Shown here: one piece after another, positions 1,497 through 19,230 of the stretch
Numbering within the stretch: position 1 is the first letter of the stretch
How the letters are laid out: each line of letters begins with the position of its first letter
NCBI RefSeq assembly: GCF_024171565.1
Contig: NZ_JALJZZ010000005.1
Span: 62,001-126,000, forward strand
DNA from: Okibacterium sp. HSC-33S16
Lineage (GTDB): Bacteria; Actinomycetota; Actinomycetes; Actinomycetales; Microbacteriaceae
Reading direction: 5' to 3'
Length of the DNA: 64,000 bases
The notes under the pieces: generated by a model
The model's input: the letters and a program-made list of their open reading frames with translations, nothing else
Told to the model about the DNA's origin: nothing
Databases searched by the model: none
Translations under genes and position numbers: made by a program

Positions 1497-2216
1497 TTAG
1501 TGAGAGTGAGCGTCAGAGCGTGAGCGGAAGCGCACCTTCTCGATGTGGTCGCGCATCGCGGCAGCGGCCTCTTCGGGCTGTCCGCTCCGGAACGCGTCGA
1601 TGATGCGCGTGTGCTCGACCACGGCGTCCTCGGCGTCGGTCACACCGCTGAGGACCGTCTGCCGCATCCGGTGCACTCGGGTGGAGATGACCTCAGACAT
1701 GTCGATGAGGAACGGGTTGTTCGTCCCCTCGAAGATCAGGTGGTGGAAAGTCCAGTCCACCGTGAAGTATTCGCGAAGGAGGGCAACCGAGAGGGTTCCT
1801 GCTGCCGCGGCGGCACGCACCTTCTCAGTGACGGCCCGGTGCTGCTCAAGTGCCGCTTCGAGCCGGGGCACGAGACTGTCCGAGTGCCGCGCTGCGAGCT
1901 CCGCAGCACCACCCTCGAGCACGATACGCGTGTCGAAGAGCGACTCGAGCTGGCTGTCGGTGATTTGTGGGGCGACCCGGTACCCCTTGAGCGGTTCGCG
2001 GGTGACGAGCCCGGTGCGCTCGAGCTGAACCAGTGCTTCGCGCACCGGGGTCGGCGATACCTTGAGGTCACGGGCGATGGCGTCGATCGACAACCGGGTC
2101 CCGGGGGCGACGGCCTGGCCGACGAGCATATCGAGGACGAGGTCGTAGACGCGATCACGCAGCCCTTTGCGCTCGATCGTGACGGTTTCACCGAGTGGGT
2201 ACGTGGTTTCAGACAT
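1497..2216 (-). CDS. GntR-family regulator, FadR/FCD subfamily
   Basis: A 239-aa regulator. The N-terminal winged helix includes LSIDAIARDLKVSPTPVREALVQLERTGLV. The C-terminal all-helical FCD ligand domain has His residues of the usual metal/ligand site (DWTFHHLIFEGTNNP and the later AMRDHIEK). The ATG at 2214-2216 was chosen because GAGGAG lies 5 nt upstream; an in-frame ATG at 2288 would add 24 residues without a ribosome site. It is the last gene of the leftward operon, and its start overlaps the end of the isomerase gene by 8 bp, implying translational coupling. FCD regulators commonly sense small organic acids, so it probably controls this locus, with candidate operators at 5312-5321 and 6307-6319. 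Confidence 0.88.
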   Translation of the reverse strand: MSETTYPLGETVTIERKGLRDRVYDLVLDMLVGQAVAPGTRLSIDAIARDLKVSPTPVREALVQLERTGLVTREPLKGYRVAPQITDSQLESLFDTRIVLEGGAAELAARHSDSLVPRLEAALEQHRAVTEKVRAAAAAGTLSVALLREYFTVDWTFHHLIFEGTNNPFLIDMSEVISTRVHRMRQTVLSGVTDAEDAVVEHTRIIDAFRSGQPEEAAAAMRDHIEKVRFRSRSDAHSH

Positions 2217-3042
2217 TCGTTCTCCTCGGGACGTCGTTACCGAGGGTATCAGCGCGCCCAAGTGCGTTTGCCGCCGTGACCGCCTCATCGAGGATCACCG
2301 ACACCGCTTGGGGGTCGTGCGCGAATCGGCCCAGGAAGATCCCGTCGACGCTGTCGGCGATCTGGCTGAGGAGACCGGGTCCGGCGCTGCCACCGTAGAT
2401 GACCGCGGACGCCGGAAAGTCGGTGAGGGAGCGAACGTGCTCGCGCAGTGCTGAGCACACGGTTCGAATGTAGTCGGGAGAGGCGGGCTCGGGAGCGCCG
2501 ATGGCCCAGTGTGGCTCGTAGGCGACGATCACCCGGCCGCTGACGCCGGAGCGCCGACTCGGTTCAAGTGCTGACTCGATTTGCCCGATGCAGTCGGCGA
2601 TAGCGGCGTCGGTCGTGGTGCGTTCAGCCTCGCCGATGCAGAGCACCGGGTCGAGACCATTGCGCAGGGCTGCCGTGGTCTTGGCCGCGACGACCTCGGG
2701 CGTCTCGCCGAACAGGCGGCGACGCTCGGCGTGGCCCACTTCGACCACCCGACAGCCAAGCTCGGCGATCTCCGCTCCGCTGACCTCACCGGTCAATGCA
2801 CCGGAGTCTTCGGTGCTCAAATCCTGCGCGCCGACAAGCGCAAGGGAACCGAGGGTCTCCACCGCCGCTGGCACCGAGAGATAGGTGGGGATGACAAACA
2901 GCTCCACCGTGCCGCCGGAGATCGCCGGGTGGGTCCCGGCGATCTCGGCGACGCTCCGGCACCACTCGACGGTGCGAGCGTGGCTGAAGTACATCTTGTG
3001 GCTCGTCCCGATCAGGAACCGGGGCGAGCCGGGCGTTGACAT
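2209..3042 (-). CDS. Triosephosphate-isomerase-like tetrulose-phosphate isomerase
   Basis: A 277-aa TIM-barrel protein with the complete triosephosphate isomerase catalytic set: Lys16 (GTSHKMYF), His104 (VEVGHAERR), Glu176 (VAYEPHWAIG) and the phosphate loop YGGSAGPG. The N-terminal GTSHKMYF differs from the GNWKMN of glycolytic TpiA. It resembles the EryH/LerI branch that isomerises L-erythrulose 1-phosphate to D-erythrulose 4-phosphate. The stop codon TGA of the RpiB-like gene shares a base with this ATG (TGATG), and its own stop overlaps the gntR start. Pairing with an RpiB homologue and a dihydroxyacetone-kinase homologue is the known arrangement for erythritol/threitol-type catabolism. 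A role as a second glycolytic TPI is less likely. Confidence 0.82.
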   Translation of the reverse strand: MSTPGSPRFLIGTSHKMYFSHARTVEWCRSVAEIAGTHPAISGGTVELFVIPTYLSVPAAVETLGSLALVGAQDLSTEDSGALTGEVSGAEIAELGCRVVEVGHAERRRLFGETPEVVAAKTTAALRNGLDPVLCIGEAERTTTDAAIADCIGQIESALEPSRRSGVSGRVIVAYEPHWAIGAPEPASPDYIRTVCSALREHVRSLTDFPASAVIYGGSAGPGLLSQIADSVDGIFLGRFAHDPQAVSVILDEAVTAANALGRADTLGNDVPRRTNV

Positions 3043-3500
3043 CAGACGCCTTCGTAGCTGCAGATCTCCTGCACCTTGTCGTTCGAGGCGCTCGACTCGT
3101 CAAAGGTGTAGGTGAGCCACTCGCGCACGAGGCGACGAGCGAGTTCGATACCGACCACGCGCTGGCCCATGCAGAGCACCTGCGCGTTGTTCGACAGCAC
3201 GGCACGCTCGACCGAGAAGCCGTCGTGAGCCGTGACGGCACGAACGCCGGCGACCTTGTTGGCGGCAATGGCGACGCCGAGACCGGTACCGCAGATCAGC
3301 AGCGCACGGTCAGCTTCGCCGCGGGCAACCATTTCGGCGGCGGCGATCGCAATTGTCGGGTAGTTGGTGTGCCCGTCGGCGTTGACGCCGACGTCGGTCA
3401 CGGATGCAACGAGGTCGTTGGCCTCGAGGTCAGCCTTCAGGCGTTCCTTGTATTCGTATCCTGCGTCGTCACAGCCGACGACAATGCGTAGTGCACTCAT
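3042..3500 (-). CDS. RpiB/LacAB-family sugar-phosphate isomerase (D-erythrulose-4-phosphate isomerase type)
   Basis: A 152-aa RpiB-family protein. The motif [13 protein letters not shown] places the catalytic-base Cys at residue 70, as in E. coli RpiB, whereas mycobacterial RpiB has Ser there. DDAGYEYK near residues 11-18 corresponds to the substrate-binding DHAG segment, with the usual His replaced by Asp-Ala; this fits the variant members (EryI/DerI) that act on four-carbon phosphates. The ATG at 3498-3500 follows AAAGGAG with 7-nt spacing. It lies 28 bp after the DhaK-DhaL gene and is coupled to the TIM-like gene. Inferred step: D-erythrulose 4-phosphate to D-erythrose 4-phosphate, feeding the pentose phosphate pathway. 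Confidence 0.85.
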
Positions 3501-3528
3501 TGTGTTGCTCCTTTAGTGGGATAAAGAT

Positions 3529-5268
3529 TTATGACTCGGATGCTGCGCGCAGCACCTCGAGGACGGCCGCCGCAATCAGCGACAGCGAGATCGCACCCGG
3601 GTCAGCGACGCCGAGGGCCTTTTCGCCGTGCGAGCGAGCCCGGCCCATACCCGGCATCATGTCCGCGGTGCCGTCCGCTGCGGTTTTCGCGGCTGAACTG
3701 GCGGCCGACCATGCCTCAATCAGGCTATCTCCGGCGCCGACACGTTCGCTGAGAGTCTCGGCGAACGGTACGAGCGAGTCGACCATGGTCTTGTCGCCGA
3801 CCTTGGCCTTGCCGAAGTCCATCACGGCCTGCTTGGCCGCATCGAGCCCCTCGGCAACGGCTGTCGCGTCGACGGCTGCCGTGTTGTCGAGCCGCTCACC
3901 AATGGTGCGGAGGATGACGCCCCAGATCGCTCCGGAGGTGCCACCGCCCTTGTTCGACCAGGCGTCAGCCGCTGAAGCGAGCACACTCTGCGCACCGGCG
4001 TCCTTGGCCAGGGTGGCGCGTGCAGCCTCGGCTCCGGCGTGCGAGCCGCGCTTCATGCCGATGCCGTGGTCTCCGTCTCCAGCAATGGCGTCGATGCGGC
4101 CCAGTTCATCGGCGCTCTCGTCGATGACGGCCATGACGGCGTCGAGCGCCTTCACAATTGTGCTGGCCGCACGCCGGGACTCGTCGCTTGCTTCAGGGAT
4201 GACCTCTTCGGCAACCGAATCGTCGATCTCGCCGCGCTGGACGAGGGAAGCGGTGTCCACCGATCCAGTGCGGAAGGCGGGGGTGTCGGCCGGGGCGTTC
4301 CAGAGGGTTTCAAGTTCGTCGTCAAGCCAGAGCAGGGTGAGCGACACACCGGCCATGTCGAAGCTCGTGCAGAACTCGCCCACCTGCGGGTCGACGATCT
4401 CGACGCCGGCGTTCTCGAGCAGCTCGGCGACCCGGGCGAAGACGATGTAGAGCTCCTCGTTTTTGACCGAACCCAGTCCGTTGAGGATCGGGACGACGCG
4501 AGAGCCCTGGACGGTGACGCCCTCGGGGATCTCCTGCTCGACGAGCAGCCGCTCGATGAAGAGGTCGGCGAGGCCGTCAGCGCTCGGGATGTCGACCTCG
4601 TCGATACCCGGCTCGCCGTGGATACCCAGGCCGATGGCCATCCGTCCCTCCGGGACAGAGAAGAGGGGCTCCTCGGCGCCGGGGAGGGTGCAGCCGGTGA
4701 AGGCAACGCCCATCGACCGGGTGCGGTCGTTTGCGAGGATCGCCGCGCGCTCGACGCCGTCGATGTCGTAACCGGCGGCCGCAGCGGCTCCGGCCACCTT
4801 GAACACGGTGAGGTCACCGGCGATGCCGCGGCGGCGTTCCTTCTCGGTCGCCGGAGCGCTGAAGATGTCATCGGTCACCGTGACCGTGCGGCAGTCAATG
4901 CCCTCGGCACGGAGCTTGTCCTGCGCCTCGGTGAAGTGCAGCACATCTCCGGCGTAGTTCCCGTAGCTGAGCAGGATGCCCCGGCCCTGGTCACTGGCGC
5001 GGGCGACAGACTCAACCTGCTGGGCGGATGGCGATGCGAAGAGGTTTCCCATCGCGGCGCCGTGCGCGAGTCCGTGGCCGACCAGTCCGCCGAACGCGGG
5101 GTAGTGACCGGATCCGCCGCCGATGACGAGCGACACAGTGGGTTCTTCGGAGCGCGTCGAGCGGGTGACACCGCCGGCGACCTTCCGGACCCATCGTCCG
5201 TTCGCGCGGACGAAGCCGTCCGTCATCTCGTCTGCAAAGTTCTCGGGTTCGTTCCAGAGTCGGGTCAT
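3529..5268 (-). CDS. DhaK-DhaL fusion kinase (dihydroxyacetone/erythrulose kinase type)
   Basis: A 579-aa single-chain ATP-dependent kinase. Residues about 1-330 form the DhaK domain, with the covalent substrate-binding histidine at His217 in GLGIHGEPG. Residues about 365-579 form the DhaL nucleotide domain, with the Asp-rich Mg-ATP motif AGDGDHGIGM (396-405) and GDKTMVD. ATP-dependent enzymes of this layout phosphorylate dihydroxyacetone or, in tetritol pathways, D- or L-erythrulose. Two sugar-phosphate isomerases follow directly, so erythrulose is the better guess. GAGGAAG precedes the ATG at 5266-5268. A perfect 10-bp palindrome lies 44-53 bp upstream of the start codon. No DhaM phosphotransferase partner is present, consistent with ATP use. 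Confidence 0.88.
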   Translation of the reverse strand: MTRLWNEPENFADEMTDGFVRANGRWVRKVAGGVTRSTRSEEPTVSLVIGGGSGHYPAFGGLVGHGLAHGAAMGNLFASPSAQQVESVARASDQGRGILLSYGNYAGDVLHFTEAQDKLRAEGIDCRTVTVTDDIFSAPATEKERRRGIAGDLTVFKVAGAAAAAGYDIDGVERAAILANDRTRSMGVAFTGCTLPGAEEPLFSVPEGRMAIGLGIHGEPGIDEVDIPSADGLADLFIERLLVEQEIPEGVTVQGSRVVPILNGLGSVKNEELYIVFARVAELLENAGVEIVDPQVGEFCTSFDMAGVSLTLLWLDDELETLWNAPADTPAFRTGSVDTASLVQRGEIDDSVAEEVIPEASDESRRAASTIVKALDAVMAVIDESADELGRIDAIAGDGDHGIGMKRGSHAGAEAARATLAKDAGAQSVLASAADAWSNKGGGTSGAIWGVILRTIGERLDNTAAVDATAVAEGLDAAKQAVMDFGKAKVGDKTMVDSLVPFAETLSERVGAGDSLIEAWSAASSAAKTAADGTADMMPGMGRARSHGEKALGVADPGAISLSLIAAAVLEVLRAASES

Positions 5269-5311
5269 AGCATTCTTCCTCGCCGTTGAGTACGTCGGTG
5301 GTCGAACACAA

Positions 5312-5321
5312 TCCTATAGGA
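5312..5321. promoter_or_regulatory. Palindrome TCCTATAGGA, candidate GntR operator
   Basis: A perfect 10-bp palindrome in the 79-bp gap between the dehydrogenase stop and the DhaK-DhaL start. Its position suits an operator for the leftward kinase-isomerase-gntR transcript. It does not match the other candidate at 6307-6319, so assignment to this GntR protein is only inferred. Confidence 0.4.
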
Positions 5322-5347
5322 AATACGACCCGAGCGCGAGGAAAACT

Positions 5348-6262
5348 TTAGGAGGCGCGAGAGGGTGCGACCACCCGGATGACCGACGAGTCGTCGGCCG
5401 CGCCCAGTCCCTGCGCCTGGCCGAGCAGGAAGAGCTGTTCAGCGGCAGCCGCAACCGGTGACGGCAGCCCGGCGGCCCGCGCCGCCTTGGAGACGATGCC
5501 CATGTCCTTAACGAAAATATCGAGGCGACTCAGCACCTCTGCGCCCTCCTCGTCGTAGGCCTGGAGCATCCGCGGTCCTCGGTTGGAGAGCATGAACGAG
5601 CCCGCGGCGCCGGCCTCGAGGGCGGGCAGCGCGCTGGCCGGATCGAGACCGAGTGACTCGGCGAGCGCGAGCGCTTCGGCTGCCGCGGCAATGTGCACAC
5701 CGCAGAGCAACTGGTTGACAGTCTTCATGGCCTGGCCGTCACCGGGCTTACCGCCAACGACGGTGAGTGTAGAGGCAAGGAGATCAAGAACAGGACGTGC
5801 TCGCTCCAGCGGTCCGGATTCAGCCCCGACGACGATGAGCAAATCGCCCTCTCCCGCGCGGACGGGCCCGCCGGAGAGGGGCGCATCGACCAGGTCGACA
5901 CCGTATTCCGCAAGACGTTTGACCGTCGACGGAATGGCATCCGCTCCAATGGTGCTGGTGAGGATCACGACGCTTCCCGAAGCGAGAACGGAGGCCACGC
6001 CGTTCGGGCCGAAGAGTGCGTCGTCGAGCTGTGCGCTGTTGCGGACAGCCACCAGGAGGATGTCGGCCGACGAGGCGGCGTCGCGTGCGGAGTCGAAGCA
6101 CTCGACGCCCTGATCAACGGCGAGCGCCATGCGTTTCTCGTCGAAGTCATAGGCGCGAACGGACAATTTCGTGGCGAGGCGGGTGGCCATGGGAAGCCCC
6201 ATGGCGCCGAGGCCGAGGATGGCGACGACGGGAGATTCCGTCGCTGCAGGTGTCGTAGTCAT
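5348..6262 (-). CDS. NAD(P)-dependent beta-hydroxyacid dehydrogenase (L-threonate/D-erythronate dehydrogenase type)
   Basis: A 304-aa enzyme of the 3-hydroxyisobutyrate/6-phosphogluconate dehydrogenase family. It shows the Rossmann motif GLGAMG (17-22), the substrate segment DAPLSGGP (126-133) and catalytic Lys180 in GDGQAMKTVNQLL, followed by the all-helical C-terminal domain. The ATG at 6260-6262 follows GGAG with 7-nt spacing. Family members next to DUF1537 kinases (LtnD, DenD) oxidise four-carbon sugar acids at C2. Tartronate semialdehyde reductase is the main alternative. It is divergent from the acid-sugar kinase across a 122-bp shared control region and may be co-transcribed with the downstream kinase operon. 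Confidence 0.82.
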   Translation of the reverse strand: MTTTPAATESPVVAILGLGAMGLPMATRLATKLSVRAYDFDEKRMALAVDQGVECFDSARDAASSADILLVAVRNSAQLDDALFGPNGVASVLASGSVVILTSTIGADAIPSTVKRLAEYGVDLVDAPLSGGPVRAGEGDLLIVVGAESGPLERARPVLDLLASTLTVVGGKPGDGQAMKTVNQLLCGVHIAAAAEALALAESLGLDPASALPALEAGAAGSFMLSNRGPRMLQAYDEEGAEVLSRLDIFVKDMGIVSKAARAAGLPSPVAAAAEQLFLLGQAQGLGAADDSSVIRVVAPSRAS

Positions 6263-6306
6263 TCCTGATCTCCAGTTCCGCGTTGCCGCCCGGGTGGATC
6301 AGCGGC

Positions 6307-6330
6307 GATGGAGGCCATCTTATATATTTG
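6307..6330. promoter_or_regulatory. Inverted repeat plus AT-rich element in divergent promoter region
   Basis: GATGG-AGG-CCATC (6307-6319) is directly followed by TATATAT (6321-6327), the most AT-rich point of the 122-bp gap between the divergent dehydrogenase and kinase genes. The spaced TGG...CCA geometry is compatible with a FadR-type GntR site. On the minus strand a possible -10 TATATA lies 18 bp after TTCTGG. Weak but positionally sensible. Confidence 0.3.
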
Positions 6331-6384
6331 CCCTTACCCAACATCCAGAATCGGCGCCAGGTGACGCGGAGCGGGGAAGAAATC

Positions 6385-7854
6385 ATGAGCCCAGTACAGG
6401 ACGCGTCCTCCGGTCGCAGCCGATCGGAACTTGCAGCCGGGCTTCCCCCGGTACTCACGGTGCCCAACGCGCGGCAGAAAATCACCGACGCGAACGCCGC
6501 CGGGAACCGCTGGGTCATCGTTCTCGACGACGACCCGACCGGGAGCCAGACGGTTCACAACACTCCCGTGCTCACCAGTTGGAGCGCCGAGGACCTGGCG
6601 TGGGCGTTCGACCAGCCGGGCCGCGGATTCTTCATCCTCACGAACACCCGCGGTTTCAACGATGCTGAGGCGCGCGAGCGCGTGTCGGAGGTGGCCGAAG
6701 CGATTGAGCGGGCCGCTGAGCTGCGCGGCGCTGAGGTCGCGCTGATCGCCCGCGGTGACTCGACCCTGCGCGGGCACTACCCGCTCGAGACGGACGTGCT
6801 CGTGGACCGGGCGCGGGAGGCAGGCACGCCGTTCAACGCGCTGCTGTTGGCCCCCGCATACTTCGCGGCTGGACGTGTGACCGTGGACGACGTGCACTAC
6901 GTCGGCACAGGCGACACCTTCGTGCCAGTGGGCGAGTCGAACTATGCCAGGGACGCGACCTTCGGGTTCTCGGCCTCGACGCTTCCCGCCTACATCGAGG
7001 AGAAGACGAAGGGCAGGATCCGGGCAACCGACGTGCTGAGCATCACCCTTGACGACATCCGAACCGGTGGACCTGAGCGGGTCAGGGATCTCCTGCTCGG
7101 CTGCAGCGATGCGCAACCCGTTGCGGTCAACCTGCTCGACGAGGCTGACCTCGACGTCGTCGTGCTTGGTGTCCTGGCGGCCGAGGCGCAGGGCGGTCGG
7201 TTCCTCGTCCGCGGCGGCCCCTCGTTCCCTGGGGCAAGACTCGGCATCGCCGCTCGTGGACCGCTCAACCACGACGAGATCTTCTCGGCAGGTGCCCGAC
7301 CCGGTCATGGCCTGATCGTCGTGGGATCGCACGTGGAGCTCACCACCCGGCAGGTCTCGCACCTCCACGCCACGGTGGCTGATGTCGAAACCATCGTGCT
7401 CGACGTGCCGCGACTTCTCGACGCGACGACGGCCGACGACGAGTTCGACCGTTGTGCGGCAGCTCTGATCGATGCGCTCGGGCGCACGGACACCCTGCTC
7501 GCCTCGAGTCGTGAACAGATCATCGGGGATTCAGGCCACTCGAGCCTCGTCATCGCCCAAACGGTGTCATCGGCACTCGTTCGGTTGACCGCCCGCGCGG
7601 TGAGTGACGCACCGCCGGCGTGGGTTATTGCGAAGGGCGGCATCACCTCAAGCGACGTCGCGACAGATGGGCTGCGGATCCGTCGGGCGAAAGTCGCCGG
7701 CCAGCTCTTCCCGGGCATCGTGTCGGTATGGCTTCACGCTGGCGAGGACGACCCGGCACTCAGCGGACTGCCGTACATCGTGTTCGCCGGAAACGTCGGT
7801 TCAGACGAGTCCCTGGCCGATGCGGTGACCATCCTCCGCGGCCGTGTCCGTTAG
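6385..7854 (+). CDS. Four-carbon acid-sugar kinase (DUF1537 family)
   Basis: A 489-aa two-domain kinase. The signature LDDDPTGSQ lies at residues 47-55, followed by RGDSTLRGHYPLE, which together define the N-terminal substrate domain. The C-terminal nucleotide domain carries VIAKGGITSSDVA. Characterised members phosphorylate 3-oxo-tetronates, D-threonate or D-erythronate, or 3-oxo-isoapionate. The ATG at 6385 was chosen because GGGGAAG lies just upstream; a longer frame from 6283 would run through the promoter region. It is divergent from the dehydrogenase, which would supply a keto-acid substrate. The usual decarboxylase/aldolase partner (OtnC) and isomerase (OtnI) are not in the window and could lie beyond the left edge. 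Confidence 0.85.
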   Translation: MSPVQDASSGRSRSELAAGLPPVLTVPNARQKITDANAAGNRWVIVLDDDPTGSQTVHNTPVLTSWSAEDLAWAFDQPGRGFFILTNTRGFNDAEARERVSEVAEAIERAAELRGAEVALIARGDSTLRGHYPLETDVLVDRAREAGTPFNALLLAPAYFAAGRVTVDDVHYVGTGDTFVPVGESNYARDATFGFSASTLPAYIEEKTKGRIRATDVLSITLDDIRTGGPERVRDLLLGCSDAQPVAVNLLDEADLDVVVLGVLAAEAQGGRFLVRGGPSFPGARLGIAARGPLNHDEIFSAGARPGHGLIVVGSHVELTTRQVSHLHATVADVETIVLDVPRLLDATTADDEFDRCAAALIDALGRTDTLLASSREQIIGDSGHSSLVIAQTVSSALVRLTARAVSDAPPAWVIAKGGITSSDVATDGLRIRRAKVAGQLFPGIVSVWLHAGEDDPALSGLPYIVFAGNVGSDESLADAVTILRGRVR

Positions 7855-7887
7855 CCGCACGAATTAGTCCCCCAAAAATAAATCGAC

Positions 7888-7920
7888 GAACCTGGAATAG
7901 CCACGATGGCTGCTCGGTTC
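7888..7920 (+). terminator. Nested hairpin after the acid-sugar kinase
   Basis: An outer stem GAACC/GGTTC (7888-7892, 7916-7920) encloses AGCCA-CGA-TGGCT (7899-7911). It lies 34 bp after the kinase stop and just before the TetR operator. There is no U-tract, so termination is plausible but weakly supported. Confidence 0.35.
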
Positions 7921-7928
7921 CATCCTTC

Positions 7929-7943
7929 AAGACGACCGGTCTA
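7929..7943. promoter_or_regulatory. TetR operator O1 (autoregulation)
   Basis: AAGACGACCGGTCTA, an inverted repeat of AAGAC/GTCTA around a GACCG spacer, 31 bp before the tetR ATG. The same 14 bases recur at 8606-8619 upstream of the next gene, the pattern expected for a TetR regulator that controls itself and its neighbours. Confidence 0.72.
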
Positions 7944-7974
7944 ATCCAACCCGGTCTCAGAAAAGGACTGCACC

Positions 7975-8544
7975 ATGACTCGGGACACTCGCCAGGTGAT
8001 CAAGGACACAGCGCTCGACCTCTTCCACCGAAAAGGCTACACAGCGACGGGAGTCCTCGACATTACGAAGACCGCGGGCGTCCCCAAAGGGTCGTTTTAT
8101 CACTTCTTCGACAGCAAGGAGTCGCTCGCACGCGAAGTAGTGGAGCAATACTCGGCAACCACACGGCTGGACATCCTTTCGGCATCAGACCCGTCGCCGC
8201 TGCAACGAATCAAGAACCACCTTGAGCACATCATGACGACCTCGGCAGAGGCCAGTTACCGACGTGGATGCCTTCTCGGTAACTTCTCAACCGAAATGCC
8301 CCCTCAAAGTTCCTTGGTGGCTAGCGCGGTCGATCAAGCGCTGTCAGACTGGGCCCAGCGGCTTGCGGCGACCATCGCCGAAGCCCAGTCGGCAGGCGAA
8401 ATATCGACAACAAGCGATGCGAATCAGCTTGCCCAATTCCTCGTGGCGGGGCTCGAGGGGTCACTAGCTCGCGCCAAAGTGTCCGGGTCGCAAGAACCGC
8501 TGGATACGTTTCGCGACGTTGCCTTTTCACTCCTCCTCGCCTGA
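7975..8544 (+). CDS. TetR-family regulator, NemR/AcuR-like, single-cysteine
   Basis: A 189-aa repressor. The N-terminal HTH includes GVLDITKTAGVPKGSFYHFFDSKESL. The C-terminal half has RRGCLLGNFSTEM and RAKVSGSQEPL. These two segments line up with the parts of E. coli NemR holding Cys106 (GCLTVKLSAE) and Lys175 (AKISRSFEPL), the pair that forms the electrophile/hypochlorite switch; here they are Cys99 and Lys168, and Cys99 is the only cysteine. AAAAGG precedes the ATG. Operators at 7929 and 8605 suggest it represses itself and the downstream unit. The alignment is from memory, so the inducer class (reactive electrophiles or oxidised chlorine) is an inference. Confidence 0.85.
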   Translation: MTRDTRQVIKDTALDLFHRKGYTATGVLDITKTAGVPKGSFYHFFDSKESLAREVVEQYSATTRLDILSASDPSPLQRIKNHLEHIMTTSAEASYRRGCLLGNFSTEMPPQSSLVASAVDQALSDWAQRLAATIAEAQSAGEISTTSDANQLAQFLVAGLEGSLARAKVSGSQEPLDTFRDVAFSLLLA

Positions 8545-8604
8545 TTGACACTACGGCGCCGGCTATCCATCACCCTCCCTCCCGCTCTTGCTTGTCGTCG
8601 TCGA

Positions 8605-8619
8605 TAGACGACCGGTCTA
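8605..8619. promoter_or_regulatory. TetR operator O2 before the hydrolase gene
   Basis: TAGACGACCGGTCTA, a perfect inverted repeat TAGAC/GTCTA with a GACCG spacer, 18 bp before the ATG at 8638. It shares 14 contiguous bases with O1 at 7929-7943. Confidence 0.75.
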
Positions 8620-8637
8620 CTGACATTAGGAACCACC

Positions 8638-9477
8638 ATGTCTCAATACACAGCTCCCAACCTTCGGATTTCTGCGCCTAATGGCGTTGAGTATGCCTAC
8701 CGGCGGTTCGGTACACCGCACGGGATCCCCCTGCTTTTCCTTCAACATTTTCGAGGCAATCTCGACAACTGGGATCCCGAACTTACCGACACGATCGCTT
8801 CCGAGCGTGAGGTGATCCTCTTTGACGCCGCAGGAATCGGGGCATCCACCGGACCCACTCCACGAACGTTCCGCGACTTCGGCCGTGATGCATTGTCATT
8901 TGTCGATGCCCTCGGGCTCACGGAAATCGACGTTCTCGGATTCTCCATCGGGGGCTTCGCTGCACAGGAACTGGCCCTCATGCGTCCGGGCTTGGTGCGC
9001 CGCCTCATCCTCGCTGGCACGGGCCCTCAGGGAGGGCGAGGGATGCACGGATGGAGCCGAGAAACCAGCGATCACGCCATGAAAGACGCACAGGATGCCA
9101 GCGACATGCTGTACCTTTTCTTCACTCCGACCGAAAGCAGCCAGGCTCGCGGTCGGGACTTCGTGGAACGCATCTTTTCCCGGATCGAAGGTCGAGACGA
9201 CGACGTAACTTTGAGCGCCCGCGATGCGCAGGCTGAAGCCATCTCCGACTGGGGCATTCGTGACTTCTCGAAGCTCGCGCGACTCGCAAGCATCACCGCA
9301 CCGACGCTCGTCATCAACGGTGACAACGACATCATGGTGCCGACTGTCAACTCCTACCTCCTTGCCGGCCACCTGCCCGATGCGCGATTGAAAATCTACC
9401 CAAACGCCAACCACGGCTTCCTGTTTGAGTATCCGCTTGACGTCGCGCGCGACGTCAACGACTTCCTTGCCGCTTAG
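8638..9477 (+). CDS. Alpha/beta hydrolase
   Basis: A 279-aa soluble hydrolase. The nucleophile elbow GFSIGG places Ser103, the acid is in NGDNDIMV (Asp229 or Asp231) and His259 is in NANHGFLFE; the oxyanion region is LQHFRGNLDNW. The fold resembles non-haem haloperoxidase-like esterases and meta-cleavage hydrolases. It lies directly behind TetR operator O2, so it is probably the first gene induced. Its substrate is unknown; hydrolysis of an ester or lactone of the inducing compound is reasonable, given the VOC, flavoprotein and EthD-like genes downstream. Confidence 0.82.
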   Translation: MSQYTAPNLRISAPNGVEYAYRRFGTPHGIPLLFLQHFRGNLDNWDPELTDTIASEREVILFDAAGIGASTGPTPRTFRDFGRDALSFVDALGLTEIDVLGFSIGGFAAQELALMRPGLVRRLILAGTGPQGGRGMHGWSRETSDHAMKDAQDASDMLYLFFTPTESSQARGRDFVERIFSRIEGRDDDVTLSARDAQAEAISDWGIRDFSKLARLASITAPTLVINGDNDIMVPTVNSYLLAGHLPDARLKIYPNANHGFLFEYPLDVARDVNDFLAA

Positions 9478-9567
9478 GCACTGACTTCGGGGCCCGGTCA
9501 TTCGTCGCCAGGCATCGAGTTACAACCTCAGGCGAATCCATCGCAGATATATAAGGAAAGTCACACC

Positions 9568-10011
9568 ATGGACATGAAACTTGAAGTACTGGTCATCCCA
9601 GTGTCGGACGTCGACCGCTCGAAAGCGTTCTACGAAAAAGCCGGATTTCGACTGGACGCGGATTTCAACATCAGCGACGATCTCCGCATCGTGCAGGTGA
9701 CCCCTCCGGGCTCCGAGATGTCAGTAATCTTCGGGACCGGCCTCACCGACTCTCGCCCCGGATCAACCCAGAACCTGCACCTCACAGTGACCGATGTCGT
9801 CGCAGCTCAAGAGGAACTCACGCAAAGAGGGATCGACGTCAGCAATGTGTGGCACGATGCTGACGGTTTGTTCCACCGCCCCGGCGGCAGAAACCGCATC
9901 GATGGCCTTGACCCCGAGCGCCGCGACTATAACTCCTTCGCCTCCTTCGACGATCCTGATGGCAATGGATGGTTCCTCCAGGAGATTGTTACCCGGGCGC
10001 CCGGCCGTTAG
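9568..10011 (+). CDS. VOC (glyoxalase/bleomycin-resistance/dioxygenase) family protein
   Basis: A 147-aa protein with paired beta-alpha-beta-beta-beta modules. It opens LEVLVIPVSDVDRSKAFYEKAGF and ends with the family signature FASFDDPDGNGWFLQEI. Conserved metal-ligand positions include a His in the middle (NLHLTVTD) and a Glu near the C-terminus. AAGGAAAG precedes the ATG. In E. coli, NemR controls the glyoxalase gene gloA, so a VOC protein behind a NemR-like regulator is functionally consistent. Nine bases separate it from the next small gene, so the two are surely co-translated. Confidence 0.82.
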   Translation: MDMKLEVLVIPVSDVDRSKAFYEKAGFRLDADFNISDDLRIVQVTPPGSEMSVIFGTGLTDSRPGSTQNLHLTVTDVVAAQEELTQRGIDVSNVWHDADGLFHRPGGRNRIDGLDPERRDYNSFASFDDPDGNGWFLQEIVTRAPGR

Positions 10012-10020
10012 GCGATCACC

Positions 10021-10221
10021 ATGGACAGGACAACGAAGGACATTTTGCTCGAGCTACTGACGCAGGCAGCAGCCGCTCACGGAATACACGAAGCCGAGGA
10101 ACTCGGCGGTGTCTTCGACGAAGAGTGGCCCGACTGGTACGCCGACCACATGGTGAAGACGCTTGCTGATGCCGGCTACGAGATCTCCCCCAGCCCGACG
10201 GTGGGCAACTCGCTCCACTAA
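10021..10221 (+). CDS. Small conserved-looking protein, 66 aa, unknown function
   Basis: A compact, acidic, helical protein with the dense motif HEAEELGGVFDEEWPDWYADHM at residues 23-44. Its aromatic and charged pattern looks conserved rather than random. It starts 9 bp after the VOC gene. I have an impression of similar small proteins paired with or fused to VOC domains in actinobacteria, but I cannot name a family. No signal peptide or membrane segment. Probably a small partner of the VOC protein. Confidence 0.7.
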   Translation: MDRTTKDILLELLTQAAAAHGIHEAEELGGVFDEEWPDWYADHMVKTLADAGYEISPSPTVGNSLH

Positions 10222-10230
10222 CTCCTCTGA

Positions 10231-10264
10231 GCGCCGCATTCCGGCTCCCCGACGGATGCGGCGC
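10231..10264 (+). terminator. Hairpin dividing the TetR unit
   Basis: GCGCCGCATTCCG (10231-10243) pairs with CGGATGCGGCGC (10253-10264), with one bulged base and a 9-nt loop. It lies 10 bp after the small gene and 52 bp before the flavoprotein. It could lower expression of the last two genes or end the transcript. No U-tract. Confidence 0.45.
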
Positions 10265-10315
10265 ACAACTCCGCCAGTCGCTGGCACACACGGTTTCAAT
10301 CATCGGAAAAAGATT

Positions 10316-11767
10316 ATGACAACGAAAGAGTACGACCTCATTGTTCTCGGCGCAGGAGCAACAGGAGAGAACCTCGCGGATCGCGCCGTTCAGGGTGGGT
10401 TAAGCGCCGTCCTCATCGAAAACGAACTCGTCGGAGGCGAATGCTCTTACTGGGCATGCATGCCTTCGAAGGCACTGCTGCGTTCTGCTCAGGCACTTCG
10501 TGCGGCTCAGAACGTGTCCGGAGCTTCTCAGGCAGTTACCGGAAAGTTGGACGTCGGGGCCGTGCTTGCACGACGTGACTCGTTCACGAGCAACTGGTCG
10601 GACGCCGGACAGGTCCGCTGGGTTCAGGGGGCCGGCATTTCACTCCTCAGAGGCAGCGGTCGAATCACGGGCCGTAAGCAAGTCACGGTGACGGCATGGA
10701 ACGGTACGACGACGATTGTCACTGCGCGCCACGCGGTGGCCATCGCCACGGGCTCAGCCGCTCTGATCCCGAACATTCCTGGACTGAGGGAAAGCAAACC
10801 GTGGACAAGCCGTGAAGCGACAAGCGCGAAGAACGTCCCGCCAAGCCTGGCGATCATTGGTGGTGGTGTCGTCGCTGTCGAGATGGCGACCGCTTACGCC
10901 GGATTTGGCTCGGTGGTAACCCTCATCTCGCGAGGGAAACTCCTCGGCAACATGGAACCCTTCGCGGGCGAGATGGTGAGCACGTCACTCGCAAACGACG
11001 GTGTTCACGTAGTTACGAATACCGAGACAACGAACGTGTCCCGTTCCGCTGATGGCGTGGTCCTCACTCTCAACAACGGAACGACGGTTTCCGCCTCTGA
11101 GGTGCTCGTGGCGACCGGTCGAACCCCGAACACCAGCGACATTGGTCTCGAGACGATTGGACTCACCCCAGGTGCCTGGCTCGAGACTGACGACACCATG
11201 CTCGTTCAGGGATCAGACTGGCTCTACGCCGCCGGGGACGTGACTCACCGTGCGTTGCTCACCCACAGTGGCAAATATCAGGCAAGAGCGGCCGGCGACG
11301 TGATCGCCGCTCGTGCATCGGGAAGCCCGGTCTCGGACCTTCCATGGGGAGCACACGTAGCGACAGCCGACCATGAAGCGGTACCTCAAGTGACCTTCAC
11401 GACCCCGGAGATTGCGTCGGTCGGCCTGACGAGCACGGCCGCCCGGGCGGCTGGCTACCATGTGCGCGCTGTCGACTACGAAATCGGCTATGTCGCAGGG
11501 GCGAGTGTCAAAGAGGACGGCTACCGCGGAACAGCGCGGATGGTCGTCGACGAGTCGCGACAGGTCGTGCTCGGCGTCACATTCGTCGGTCCCGACGTTA
11601 GTGAACTCCTCCATGCGGCAACCGTCGCCATCGTCGGTGAAATACCGCTCGACCGGCTCTGGCATGCGGTCCCCGCCTACCCGACCGTCAACGAAATTTG
11701 GTTGCGACTACTTGAGACCTATGGACGCGAGAGCGCACTGCCTCTTCGCCCCGCAGCAGCCGCTTAA
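10316..11767 (+). CDS. Flavoprotein disulfide reductase, class I-like, with altered active-site acid/base
   Basis: A 483-aa FAD/NAD(P) protein. The N-terminal FAD motif is VLGAGATGEN. The redox-active pair Cys43-X4-Cys48 sits in GGECSYWACMPSK. A second Rossmann motif is AIIGGGVVAVEMA and the FAD-binding segment is LYAAGDV. The C-terminal interface region reads HAVPAYPTVNE, so the catalytic His of lipoamide and glutathione reductases is Tyr455, with Glu460 kept; mercuric reductase also has Tyr there, but the C-terminal Cys pair needed for mercury transfer is absent (the protein ends RPAAAA). The ATG at 10316 was chosen over a 51-aa N-terminal extension that runs through the preceding hairpin. 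Substrate unknown. Confidence 0.83.
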   Translation: MTTKEYDLIVLGAGATGENLADRAVQGGLSAVLIENELVGGECSYWACMPSKALLRSAQALRAAQNVSGASQAVTGKLDVGAVLARRDSFTSNWSDAGQVRWVQGAGISLLRGSGRITGRKQVTVTAWNGTTTIVTARHAVAIATGSAALIPNIPGLRESKPWTSREATSAKNVPPSLAIIGGGVVAVEMATAYAGFGSVVTLISRGKLLGNMEPFAGEMVSTSLANDGVHVVTNTETTNVSRSADGVVLTLNNGTTVSASEVLVATGRTPNTSDIGLETIGLTPGAWLETDDTMLVQGSDWLYAAGDVTHRALLTHSGKYQARAAGDVIAARASGSPVSDLPWGAHVATADHEAVPQVTFTTPEIASVGLTSTAARAAGYHVRAVDYEIGYVAGASVKEDGYRGTARMVVDESRQVVLGVTFVGPDVSELLHAATVAIVGEIPLDRLWHAVPAYPTVNEIWLRLLETYGRESALPLRPAAAA

Positions 11768-11808
11768 ACCTCCATCGACAACCCACAAAACCGAACGGCG
11801 AAAACATC

Positions 11809-12126
11809 ATGCAAACCAAAATCACACTGATCATCGACAACCCGGAGGATCCAGGGGCGTTCGAGTCGAGCTATCCCGAGCTTCTGTCCCTCGGCTTGGC
11901 TCTGCCAAGACTTGTCCGGACGGAATCTGCTCTTGTGTTCCCCAAGGAGGACGGCACGCCGACTCCGGCACACCGTACGCTCGATTTCTACTTCGAAACC
12001 TACGAAGATGCGTCGAACGCCGTCACGACACCTGAAGCCGGGGCATTCTTTCAAAAACTCGGCGAACTCGGCACCGGATTCACCGGCTTGTTCTCAGAGG
12101 TGGAAGAGCCGCTGCCCAGCACCTAG
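11809..12126 (+). CDS. EthD-like ferredoxin-fold protein
   Basis: A 105-aa protein with the alternating strand-helix layout of EthD/dimeric alpha-beta barrel proteins. It begins with a strand MQTKITLIIDNPEDPGAFE, includes TLDFYFETYEDASNAV and ends with the segment AGAFFQKLGELGTGFTGLF. EthD proteins accompany ether- and xenobiotic-degrading oxidation systems and other small-molecule catabolic clusters. It is the last gene of the TetR unit, 41 bp after the flavoprotein. The ribosome site is weak. The family assignment rests on size and pattern, not on a motif match. Confidence 0.68.
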   Translation: MQTKITLIIDNPEDPGAFESSYPELLSLGLALPRLVRTESALVFPKEDGTPTPAHRTLDFYFETYEDASNAVTTPEAGAFFQKLGELGTGFTGLFSEVEEPLPST

Positions 12127-12142
12127 GGCCGGAGTTGGAACT

Positions 12143-12170
12143 GAGCCGGCGCCCGTCGCGGTGCCGGCTC
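12143..12170. terminator. Bidirectional terminator between the EthD-like gene and ramB
   Basis: GAGCCGGCGCC (12143-12153) pairs with GGTGCCGGCTC (12160-12170), one G-T wobble, loop CGTCGC. It lies between convergent genes and overlaps the first two bases of the ramB stop codon. Confidence 0.65.
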
Positions 12171-13653
12171 ACACCGGCGCGTGCGCCTCGAGGAAGCGAT
12201 AGACCTCAACCTGGTCGACGCCCGGGAAAGTTCCGGTCGGCAGGGCCGCGAGCAGGCTCGTGGGCGTGCGAGCGGCTGGCCAGGACTGGTGCGCCCACTT
12301 GTCGGCAAGGTCGCTCGGCGCGCTCTTGCAGCAGCTTTCGTCGGGGCAGCTCGACTGCGATCGATTGCTGGTTTCCCGACCCCGGAACCACTTCACGTGC
12401 TCGAACGGCACCCCGACGGTGATGGAGTACTCGCCCTCCTTCGCCTTCTCGATCCGTGACGTGCACCAATACGTCCCGTTCGGGTTATCGGTGTATTGGT
12501 ACCAGGGGCTGAACCGGTCCTCGGCGGCGAACACCGTAAACGCCGTCCACTTGCGACAGACGGTTGTCCCCTCAACAGCGCCCAAGGCATCCGTCGGATG
12601 CTTCACACCGTCGTTCGAATAGGCCTTCACGATCGTGCCTGACTCATGGACCTTCGTGAAATGCACCGGAATGCCCAGACGTGCGGTCGCCAGGTTGGTG
12701 AATCGGTGCGCCGCCGTCTCGTAGGAGACCGCGAACGCGTCGCGCAGGTCCTCGAGAGAGATTCGGCGGAAGTTCTTCGCCTCGGTGAGGAACCGCACGG
12801 CGTCGGATTCCGGCAGCAGAATCGCCGCCGTGAGGTAGTTCGTCTCCACACGCTGGCGCAGGAAATCGGCGTAGCTCGTCGGCTCAGAGTGCCCGAGAAC
12901 GGAGCTGGCGAACGCCTGCACCACCGGCGAGCGCGAGTCGCGCGACGCGGACTGCTGGGTCGGCAGGTAGATGCGTCCGTTGCGGGAGTCGGTCACCGAG
13001 CGGGTCGAGTGCGGCAGGTCACCCACATAGTGCAGGGTGAAGCCGAGGTGATTGGCCATATCGCTGACGAGTTGCTGCGACACGGGGCCGCCGGTGTGTC
13101 CAACGGCGACGAGAAGTTCTTTCGCCTGAGCCTCCAGTTCAGGAAAGTAGTTGTCTCGAGCGCGCATGGTCGCCCGCAGTGAGGCGTTGGCCCGACGCGC
13201 CTCTTCCGGCGTCGCCGCGCGCTCCCGGTGCAGCCGCTCCACCTCGGCGTGCAGCGCCAGGATCGTGCGCAGCGTCTCGTCACTGTGCGCTTTCGACACC
13301 CGGATCGGCCCGATGCCCAGCGCCGAAAACACCGCCCCGCGCTGCGCGCGTTCCACCGCGATCTCCAACCCAGCCCGCTCGTTCGGTACCTCGTCGACCA
13401 GAAGATTGTCGGTTGTTGTGCCGAGTGCCGAGGCGATGCGCCGCAGCATCGAGAGCCGCGGCTCACGCTTGCCGTTCTCAATTGTCGAGACCTGCGACGG
13501 CGCCCGGTCGATTGCCGCCCCCAATTGCTCAAGCGTCATTCCGCGGGCGATTCGCAGGGAACGGATGCGACGCCCCAACAGCAAGGCGTCAACCGTTGGC
13601 ACATCGGCCGCGCCGGTCGGTGGCATCTGGGGTTCAGCAGCGGTGCTGGTCAT
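12169..13653 (-). CDS. ramB: RamB-type regulator of acetate/glyoxylate metabolism
   Basis: A 494-aa regulator with an N-terminal XRE helix-turn-helix ([26 protein letters not shown]), a central domain of the IrrE/ImmA-like type seen in short-chain fatty acid regulators (ScfR), and a C-terminal domain with several cysteines ([21 protein letters not shown]). Corynebacterial RamB has this architecture and controls aceA, aceB and acetate activation. The ATG at 13651-13653 begins MTSTAAEPQ; the frame is open further upstream, but that would run through the shared promoter. It is divergent from aceA, a very telling context. The cysteines may bind a metal or sense redox. Confidence 0.85.
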
Positions 13654-13689
13654 GGCACCATCGTGACATCCGCTCGCCTTTTCAACAAA

Positions 13690-13711
13690 CAGAAGAATCG
13701 ATCTTTTTCTG
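13690..13711. promoter_or_regulatory. Inverted repeat in the ramB-aceA intergenic region, candidate RamB site
   Basis: CAGAA (13690-13694) and TTCTG (13707-13711) flank a second, inner palindrome ATCGAT (13697-13702). This is the AT-rich heart of the 162-bp divergent gap. RamB and glyoxylate regulators act on aceA promoters in related organisms, so this is the best operator candidate here. Confidence 0.4.
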
Positions 13712-13815
13712 CTCACTTTTTCGGATCGGATGTTCGCTGGCACGCCCACACTCGGTTTACGACCTCAGAACCGCGGCGTCAGAACCCGGTTCGATCCGAC
13801 CGAAGGAGCACGACG

Positions 13816-15117
13816 ATGAGCACCGAAACCACCCGTACCGGAGACGCGACGCAGACCGCAGCCGAATTGCAGCTCGAGTGGGACGCGAACCCCCGCTGGG
13901 AAGGTGTCCGCCGGGACTACACCGCCGATGAGGTCGTCGCGCTGCGGGGCAGCGTTCGGGAAGATGCGACCCTCGCCCGTCGGGGTGCCGAGAACCTGTG
14001 GAATCTCATTCACTCCGAGGAGTGGGTGCCCGCGCTCGGTGCCCTCACCGGCAACCAGGCCGTGCAGCAGGTGCGCGCCGGGCTCAAGGCCATCTACCTC
14101 TCGGGCTGGCAGGTTGCCGCCGATGCCAACCTTTCCGGGCAGACCTACCCCGACCAGTCGCTGTACCCCGCCAACTCGGTGCCGTCCGTGGTGCGCCGCA
14201 TCAACAACGCGTTACTCCGCGCCGACCAAATCGAGTTCGCCGAGACCGGGTCAACGACCGTGGACTGGCTCGCACCGATCGTCGCCGACGCCGAGGCCGG
14301 GTTCGGCGGGCCGCTCAACGCGTACGAGCTCATGTCGTCGATGATCGCGGCTGGAGCGGCCGGAGTGCACTGGGAAGACCAGCTCGCCAGCGAAAAGAAG
14401 TGCGGCCACATGGGCGGCAAGGTCCTCATCCCGACCGGCCAGCACATCCGAACCCTCAACGCCGCCCGGCTGGCTGCCGACGTCGCCGGCGTGCCGAGTG
14501 TGATCATCGCCCGCACCGACGCCCTCGCCGCGACCCTGCTGACGAGCGACGTCGACGAGCGCGACCGCCCCTTCCTCACCGGAACCCGTACCGCCGAGGG
14601 TTTCTATGAGGTGCGCAGCGGCATCGACACCGTCATCTCCCGCGGCCTGGCTTATGCCGAATACGCCGACCTGCTCTGGGTCGAGTCGGCCGAACCCGAC
14701 CTCGAACTCGCCCGGAGATTCGCCGAACGCATCCACCAGGACTTCCCGGGCAAGAAACTCGCCTACAACTGCTCGCCGTCGTTCAACTGGAAATCCCACC
14801 TCGACGACGCGCAGATCGCGAGCTTCCAGAAGGAACTCGCCGCCATGGGCTACGCCTTCCAGTTCATCACGCTGGCCGGCTTCCACGCGCTAAACCACTC
14901 CATGTTCACACTCGCCGCCGATTACAAGAACCGCGCCATGAGCGCCTACGTCGAACTGCAAGAAGCCGAATTCGCCTCGGAAGCGAACGGATACACCGCA
15001 ACCAAGCACCAGCGCGAGGTCGGCACCGGCTACTTCGACCGGATCGCCACCGCGTTGAACCCGACGAGCGCCACCCTCGCGCTCGTTGGTTCGACCGAAG
15101 AAGACCAGTTCTCCTGA
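13816..15117 (+). CDS. aceA: Isocitrate lyase
   Basis: A 433-aa enzyme splitting isocitrate to glyoxylate and succinate, the first step of the glyoxylate shunt. The family signature KKCGHM carries catalytic Cys196. The Mg-binding and substrate segments are also intact ([40 protein letters not shown]). Length is normal for the short bacterial form. The ATG at 13816 follows GAAGGAG at good spacing; the upstream open frame overlaps ramB and is not coding. The next gene is malate synthase, 27 bp downstream, so the pair forms the acetate-growth operon under ramB control. Confidence 0.96.
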
Positions 15118-15144
15118 CCCTCTCGACACACAAGGACTTTCCTC

Positions 15145-16815
<1,671 letters not shown>

Positions 16816-16834: not shown

Positions 16835-16876
16835 GTAGACACGGTCCCCGCATCTGGATGCGGGGACCGTGTCTAC
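16835..16876 (+). terminator. Terminator of the aceAB operon
   Basis: Perfect 20-bp inverted repeat, 16835-16854 against 16857-16876, with only a 2-nt TG between the arms; the core is GGTCCCCGCATC. No U-tract follows, as is common in actinobacteria. Confidence 0.75.
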
Positions 16877-16909
16877 GCGCTCACGTATGGTCGAGCGCCA
16901 TGGCTGCCC

Positions 16910-16938
16910 TTGACGCGCTTCACAAAAGTTGCGAGTCT
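16910..16938 (+). promoter_or_regulatory. Possible promoter of the VOC gene at 16984
   Basis: TTGACG (16910-16915), a 17-bp spacer and GAGTCT (16933-16938), 45 bp before the GTG start. The -35 box is good and the -10 box poor. Confidence 0.3.
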
Positions 16939-16983
16939 CACATCGAGACGGTGACTGACACCGCCGGAGTCAAAGGAGACACT

Positions 16984-17424
16984 GTGACCGACATCTTCGT
17001 CAACCTCCCGATCACCGATCTGGAACGCACCAAATCCTTCTACACGGCCCTCGGCTGGGAGATCAACGAACTTTTCACGAACGAGGACGCCGCCTGCGTC
17101 ATCGTGGATGACAACATCTATCTCATGCTCCTCACCCGGGACTTCCTGGCGACGTTCACCGATAAGCAGATCATCGACACCACAACATCGGTGCAGGCCA
17201 TGACCGCGTTCAGCAGTGCGAGCAGCGAAGACGTCGACGCGCTCACCGAAAAGGGTCTGGCCGCCGGCGGATCCGAGCCGAGACCGGCCCAGGATCTCGG
17301 CTTCATGTACTCCCGCGACCTCGAAGATCCGGACGGAAACATTCTCGAGTTTGTCTACATGGATCCCGCTGCAGCTGAGCAGGGACCCGACGCGTATCTG
17401 GCGGAGCAAAGCACGGGAAGTTAA
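16984..17424 (+). CDS. VOC (glyoxalase-like) family protein
   Basis: A 146-aa protein with VOC modules: [23 protein letters not shown] at the start and [22 protein letters not shown] at the end. This is the form often annotated as lactoylglutathione lyase-like or PhnB-like. The GTG start at 16984 was chosen because AAAGGAG lies 6 nt upstream; a longer ATG frame from 16858 begins inside the aceB terminator. No neighbouring gene explains its substrate. It stands alone between the glyoxylate operon and the aminotransferase gene. Confidence 0.82.
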
Positions 17425-18723: not shown

Positions 18724-18758
18724 GCTGTAGTTCGTGTGCTCGGAATCGGCCGACTCGC

Positions 18759-18764
18759 TACCAT
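18759..18764 (+). promoter_or_regulatory. -10 element TACCAT of a leaderless VOC mRNA
   Basis: TACCAT, then 7 nt, then the ATG at 18772. No ribosome-binding site precedes the ATG. Same geometry as the aminotransferase gene just upstream. Confidence 0.58.
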
Positions 18765-18771
18765 GCAGCCC

Positions 18772-19230
18772 ATGGTTATCAAACTCGAGAATGTCGGAAT
18801 CGCTGTTCGAGACATCGACGCAACGATTGCCTTTTTTACCGATCTCGGCCTCACCGTCCTCGGCCGCGATACCGTCAGCGGCGAATGGGCCGACACGGCC
18901 GTCGGTCTTGACGGCAATCACGCGCGCATTGCGGTGCTCCAGACGCCCGACGGCCAGGGGCAGCTCGAGCTCTTCGAATACATTCATCCCGACGCGATCG
19001 AGACCGAACCCACTCGTCCTCACCAGATCGGCATGCATCGCGTCGCTTTTTCGGTAGACAACCTCGACGACGCCCTGGCGATCGCTGCGAAACACGGCTG
19101 CTTTCCGCTTCGTGGCGTCGGCACCTACGAGGACGTCTACAAGCTGACGTATGTCCGCGGTCCAAGCGGCATCATCGTGATGCTCGCCGAACAACTGAGG
19201 GCGAGCGACGCGACGGCCACTCGGACTTAA
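18772..19230 (+). CDS. VOC family protein (methylmalonyl-CoA epimerase/glyoxalase-like)
   Basis: A 152-aa protein: IKLENVGIAVRDIDATIAFFTDLGL at the start, MHRVAFSVDNLDDALAIA at the start of the second module, and VRGPSGIIVMLAEQL at the end. His and Glu metal ligands sit at the usual places (NVGIAV is hydrophobic at the first His position, HQIGMHRVAF supplies His, and IVMLAEQL ends with Glu). Start choice follows the leaderless promoter; an ATG at 18736 would put the -10 box inside the gene. It is convergent with and directly abuts murB. Confidence 0.8.
   Translation: MVIKLENVGIAVRDIDATIAFFTDLGLTVLGRDTVSGEWADTAVGLDGNHARIAVLQTPDGQGQLELFEYIHPDAIETEPTRPHQIGMHRVAFSVDNLDDALAIAAKHGCFPLRGVGTYEDVYKLTYVRGPSGIIVMLAEQLRASDATATRT

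Follow-up and report, generated by a model that had tools for sequence, protein, structure and literature searches.

A putative electrophile-response detoxification cassette under a NemR/AcuR-clade TetR regulator in Okibacterium sp. HSC-33S16

Introduction

Which chemical signal does a TetR-type regulator followed by five closely spaced genes answer in the soil-type actinobacterium Okibacterium sp. HSC-33S16, and is this gene set native to the genome? The locus lies in a stretch of 64,000 nucleotides, which is called the window here, and all positions refer to it. A preliminary description had proposed a regulon that senses electrophiles or hypochlorite. The first half of that proposal held better than the second, as an electrophile response fits the operator and the cargo, while nothing singles out hypochlorite over quinones, enones, other electrophiles or a non-covalent ligand. 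Our leading reading, to which we assign a probability of roughly 0.55, is that the cassette is a mobile, self-repressing electrophile-response detoxification operon that would be released through modification of Cys99 of its regulator. Electrophile sensing is thus regarded as plausible, and hypochlorite specificity as unsupported.

Results

Composition of the cassette

The cassette contains six genes between 7975 and 12126, all on the forward strand and with intergenic gaps under 100 bp, as shown in Table 1. The five genes described earlier as following the regulator were all present at their places, the EthD-like label being right as a fold only.

Table 1. Features of the cassette, with positions in the window
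Feature	Position	Strand	Remarks
Acquired cassette (insertion relative to the sister species)	7855-12170	.	ends approximate
Operator 1 (predicted), AAGACGACCGGTCTA	7929-7943	+	31 nt 5′ of TetR start
Predicted TetR repressor, NemR/AcuR clade (TetR_C_13)	7975-8544	+	189 aa, Cys99, Lys168
Operator 2 (predicted), TAGACGACCGGTCTA	8605-8619	+	18 nt 5′ of hydrolase start
Alpha/beta hydrolase	8638-9477	+	279 aa; PF00561, 2.1e-23
VOC (glyoxalase/dioxygenase superfamily) protein	9568-10011	+	147 aa; PF00903, 1.1e-8
66-aa protein, VOC-linked domain	10021-10221	+	family-less in libraries searched
Strong RNA hairpin between 66-aa and flavoprotein genes	10228-10267	+	fold z -3.0; inverted repeat I3; no T run
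FAD/NAD(P) disulfide-reductase-like flavoprotein	10316-11767	+	483 aa; PF07992, PF02852
EthD-like dimeric alpha+beta-barrel protein	11809-12126	+	105 aa; fold-based label
Terminator-like hairpin, cassette end	12142-12171	.	12-nt arms, 92% complementary; fold z -2.6

The regulator and its conserved residues

The Pfam search revealed a TetR_N domain (PF00440) and a TetR_C_13 domain (PF16925, 1.1e-22) in the regulator, the latter scoring 80.9 bits against a gathering score of 27, which places the protein in TetR_C_13. Its best NCBIfam family was AcuR (4.8e-43), with 146.8 bits falling below the equivalog threshold of 247 bits. The protein has a single cysteine, Cys99, and the earlier alignment of this residue with Cys106 of E. 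coli NemR, and of Lys168 with Lys175, was confirmed by MAFFT and by a phmmer comparison with the NemR chain 4yze. The PDB structures closest to the regulator model were 3bru, a TetR protein from Rhodobacter, PA2196, whose structure is bound to its own operator, and NemR 4yze (chain A TM 0.85-0.89). Given these top matches, the objection that a structural alignment might put Cys99 away from the NemR switch does not apply, and the placement survived by both sequence and fold.

Among 35 aligned members of the superfamily, 33 have Cys at the position of Cys99 and 15 have Lys at that of Lys168, so that the pair is a mark of the clade and its Cys is not diagnostic for bleach sensing. Because the Cys is present clade-wide, Cys99 neither identifies the sensing mode nor proves thiol sensing in this regulator, and its presence was dismissed as proof of redox sensing. 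Within the clade, Cys106 is the demonstrated sensor residue of NemR (PMC8748444) and Cys100 that of AltR (PMC13178969), while the co-inducer of AcuR is acrylate (PMC3017554). The value of Lys168 is doubtful, because the Lys is dispensable even in the NemR-based Hypocrates sensor, where the Lys-to-Ala form kept its response to NaOCl and a sulfenamide was not observed (PMC8748444).

Operators in the window and in relatives

Two near-identical operators had been described as bracketing the regulator gene, and both are borne out as 15-bp inverted repeats of the form TAGAC-N5-GTCTA, with operator 1 having A for the first T. They were the sole matches to the 14-mer in the window at up to one mismatch, and the shuffled control gave 0.5 matches at two mismatches. 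The E. coli nemR gene carries TAGACCGACTGGTCTA immediately 5′ of its start, which has the same half-site, and the cassette operator equals this site minus one spacer base (spacer 5 vs 6). The operator of R. sphaeroides acuR, TAATAGAC-n6-GTCTATTA, has been confirmed by mutation (PMC3017554).

Across 300 genomes of the family, exact TAGACGACYGGTCTA was found eight times, in all eight cases beside a NemR/AcuR-type regulator, against four matches for its reversed control in the same genomes. Sites flanking the regulator on both sides were also observed in G175 and G197. A bracketing operator pair surrounds TetR-hydrolase genes in three other genera; the pair is slightly altered around the TetR-hydrolase genes of G129 and G026, and in the third case, a conjugative plasmid of Paenarthrobacter, both flanking sites read TAGTCGACCGGTCTA; by chance, ~0.03 one-mismatch sites would be expected per kb there. 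We consider the operator to be the strongest of the evidence.

The regulon in the host genome appears to be local. One further site within one mismatch was located in the whole genome, at the 3′ end of an unrelated ORF, and the motif at up to two mismatches was not enriched genome-wide (59 matches vs 185 for the reversed control); a regulon extending beyond the cassette was dismissed on these grounds.

Two genomes, at L148 (5572-7671) and L153 (6935-7640), carry an amidase-type gene after a NemR-type regulator that has the same operators on both sides, possibly another regulon of this kind with different cargo.

Cargo genes

The best PDB match of the hydrolase was 4pw0 (E 1e-61). No Pfam, NCBIfam or PHROG match was obtained for the 66-aa protein, which carries the motif AAxAHGxHEx..LGG(V)xDexWPxWYA. 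A VOC gene lies directly upstream of it in 19 of the 20 loci carrying this protein; in these 19 loci (L028-L046) the domain is fused to the VOC protein in seven and encoded as a separate gene just downstream in 12. An independent enzyme is disfavoured by these fusions. Two more VOC-superfamily-looking genes are located nearby, at 16858-17424 and 18736-19230, and the cassette VOC protein matched neither of them when searched against its own genome.

The flavoprotein shares with MerA, RclA and dihydrolipoyl dehydrogenase (Lpd) the FAD- and NAD(P)-binding disulfide-reductase fold and a CxxxxC pair (Cys43/Cys48). However, Tyr455 replaces the catalytic His of the HPT motif, Tyr or Phe stands in place of the Lpd/RclA His in all 30 aligned homologues, and Cys43 and Cys48 are the only Cys present, so the C-terminal vicinal Cys pair of MerA is missing. 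Because of these replacements, a standard disulfide or mercuric reductase role is unlikely. The protein also scored under the cut-offs of the MerA mercuric reductase model (278 of 454 bits) and the dihydrolipoyl dehydrogenase model (287 of 409 bits), and far under that of the RclA model; identity as a mercuric, hypothiocyanous acid or lipoamide reductase was dismissed on the cut-offs and active-site residues. We infer that the flavoprotein reduces a quinone-like acceptor.

The EthD-like gene, which often adjoins the flavoprotein gene, encodes a protein modelled confidently by AlphaFold as a ferredoxin-like barrel (pLDDT 91.9). Foldseek gave 2ftr of the EthD family as its best match (TM 0.77-0.81, E 3e-7), with 4-methylmuconolactone methylisomerase and small monooxygenases ranking next, and the protein had no Pfam match (EthD profile up to E 5) and no NCBIfam match. 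The name is therefore correct for the fold and not for a sequence family.

Gene order and modules

A search for the five-gene order elsewhere had been suggested earlier, and it revealed that the order is not unique: hydrolase, VOC, 66-aa, flavoprotein and EthD-like genes follow each other in two genomes of another genus (G029 and G237; loci L035 and L036), with protein identities of 53-72% and no TetR of this kind there, L036 having ~440 bp extra between the 66-aa and flavoprotein genes. The set consists of three recurring modules, namely TetR-hydrolase, VOC-66aa and flavoprotein-EthD-like. The first is conserved in G129, G026 and the Paenarthrobacter plasmid, while VOC-66aa-flavoprotein adjoins an HxlR-type regulator in L031, and in L033 an HxlR-type regulator plus a nearby PF16925 TetR. 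YodB, CatR and QsrR belong to DUF24/HxlR. These three are quinone sensors in B. subtilis and S. aureus (PMC6798810). Genes that follow related TetR genes include, from case to case, a WrbA quinone oxidoreductase with a muconolactone-isomerase-family gene, a hydrolase with an aldo/keto reductase, or a Rid hydrolase. The claim that the cassette matches no known system is correct only in half: the combination is new, but its parts are of known kinds, its modules recur, and its five-gene order occurs in another genus.

Insertion and transfer

In G003, a genome of the same genus, the two genes on either side of the cassette converge with ~33 bp between them, and in G001 the flanks are contiguous too, though the left neighbour is missing as well. 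Neither the TetR regulator nor the 66-aa gene was found in the congeners searched, and two losses are a less likely explanation than insertion in the Okibacterium lineage. Compared with the 41 other genes of the window, the cassette has a low GC3 (0.667-0.761 vs 0.796 ± 0.043), with five of its six genes lying below all, or all but one, of the 41. A-ending codons amount to 13-20% in the cassette vs 9.0 ± 3.2% in the same 41 genes, so the earlier impression that they are commoner here than in the flanking genes proved correct. Since the flanks lie ~33 bp apart in the sister species and the cassette GC3 is low, recent acquisition by transfer, previously only hinted at, is supported.

Neither a mobile element nor a target-site duplication was seen at the cassette ends. 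Among 72,556 plasmids, the cassette had no near DNA match and the 66-aa protein no match at all, the closest counterpart being the diverged TetR-hydrolase pair alone on the Paenarthrobacter plasmid; a very recent plasmid origin was dismissed for lack of a near DNA match.

Upstream of the cassette, 2209-7854 holds a likely sugar-acid catabolic cluster, judged mostly by eye, whose proteins are triose-phosphate-isomerase-, RpiB-, dihydroxyacetone-kinase-, 3-hydroxyisobutyrate-dehydrogenase- and D-threonate-kinase-like. At 12169-16815, a RamB-like regulator is divergent from isocitrate lyase- and malate synthase-looking genes of a glyoxylate shunt.

Transcript units

The flavoprotein and EthD-like genes are not certain to share a transcript with the rest, because a strong hairpin precedes the flavoprotein gene. 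Operator control may conceivably cover the TetR, hydrolase and VOC genes and end with the 66-aa gene, leaving the flavoprotein and EthD-like genes as a separately transcribed passenger; in L048, L053 and L062 this pair does stand by itself, with a divergent TetR of its own. We regard such a division as possible but less likely, given the single strand and short gaps throughout and the full order maintained in G029 and G237; the gap before the flavoprotein gene also showed no operator-like or consensus promoter site, in a search that covers actinobacterial promoters poorly. In the leading reading, all five genes following the regulator would be co-transcribed.

Discussion

Comparison with known systems

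The nemR-nemA-gloA system of E. coli is alike in having a TetR repressor of the same clade and fold with Cys and Lys in register, a TAGAC/GTCTA inverted-repeat operator before the regulator and, downstream of it, genes for a flavin reductase and for an enzyme of the VOC superfamily. It differs in that NemR has six Cys against one in the cassette TetR and its operator a spacer of 6 instead of 5, while the cassette has a second operator after the regulator and adds hydrolase, 66-aa and EthD-like genes; no Pfam match to an Old Yellow Enzyme of the nemA type was found among its five genes. AcuR, the best NCBIfam family of the regulator, is alike in its TAGAC half-site (PMC3017554), while acuI or dddL is not near the cassette and no zinc-dehydrogenase-type gene lies within it. 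AltR of the Pantoea allicin-tolerance cluster, a homologue of NemR in which a single conserved Cys is essential, controls a detoxification cluster (PMC13178969); set beside the cassette TetR by description, it differs in its half-site, CAATCTAC-n6, and in its cargo.

In the quinone-resistance operon mhqRED, the genes for the alpha/beta hydrolase MhqD and the ring-cleavage dioxygenase MhqE are neighbours and stand under a repressor that responds to quinones and regulates itself (PMC6798810). At superfamily level, the adjacent hydrolase and VOC genes of the cassette recall this pair in the mhqRED operon of S. aureus and the MhqR regulon of B. subtilis. Unlike the TetR of the cassette, MhqR is of the MarR type, and mhqRED of S. 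aureus has no reductase or EthD-like gene.

Alternative explanations

The cassette could instead be a catabolic operon, in which a small aromatic, lactone or acid is the non-covalent ligand of the regulator and degradation proceeds by a short pathway encoded in the five genes, with the hydrolase, a VOC dioxygenase or isomerase and a barrel resembling EthD or muconolactone isomerase as its enzymes. Such a reading would agree with the acrylate induction of AcuR, among the closest named families (PMC3017554), with the 3-oxoadipate enol-lactonases that are the nearest NCBIfam models of the hydrolase, with the 4-methylmuconolactone methylisomerase among the EthD-like folds, and with a clade-wide Cys that may be structural. 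Yet both a transporter and a ring hydroxylase are absent from the cassette, and in relatives the regulator goes together with reductases and a quinone oxidoreductase, which suggests defence and not growth; we hold the catabolic explanation to be possible but clearly the less probable.

A switch of the NemR type specific for hypochlorite, acting through a Cys99-Lys168 sulfenamide, is improbable. The register with NemR C106/K175 and the NemR-like operator would suit it, and the disulfide reductase-like enzyme is reminiscent of RclA and of MerA, a hypothiocyanous acid reductase; the cassette enzyme, however, lacks the catalytic His of RclA and falls far under the RclA and MerA cut-offs, the Lys is retained in fewer than half of the aligned members, and the Hypocrates results with the Lys-to-Ala form point the same way (PMC8748444).

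Proposed mechanism and meaning

Under the electrophile-response reading, the repressor would occupy both operators and so keep its own gene and those of the enzymes silent, in a manner parallel to nemR-nemA-gloA. An electrophile such as a quinone, enone or alpha-oxo-aldehyde would modify Cys99 in the sensor domain, upon which the repressor would leave the DNA and the operon would turn on. The flavoprotein might then reduce the electrophile using NAD(P)H, while hydrolysis, isomerisation or cleavage of the products might fall to the hydrolase, to the VOC protein together with the 66-aa protein, and to the EthD-like barrel.

Beyond this, we tentatively suggest, with less confidence than the operon reading itself, a previously undescribed, modular and horizontally moving electrophile-defence system. 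Its three parts would be exchangeable: a TetR-hydrolase switch bracketed by operators, a VOC protein that forms a two-part enzyme with its new 66-aa partner, and a flavoprotein of altered disulfide-reductase active site paired with the EthD-like protein, with the cargo standing under TetR or HxlR in different genera. Actinobacteria use mycothiol in place of glutathione. If the reading is right, reactive-chemical sensing of the NemR/AcuR kind, with a readable operator code, reaches this phylum, and TAGACGACYGGTCTA bracketing any actinobacterial TetR gene would predict an electrophile response. It would also be a starting point for studying a detoxification set in which two families are unassigned, namely the 66-aa domain tied to VOC and the flavoprotein variant with Tyr.

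The flavoprotein family was also observed repeatedly beside an enoyl-CoA hydratase-like gene in L071, L073 and L075, in genomes without the cassette, and given this neighbourhood it may have a broader housekeeping role.
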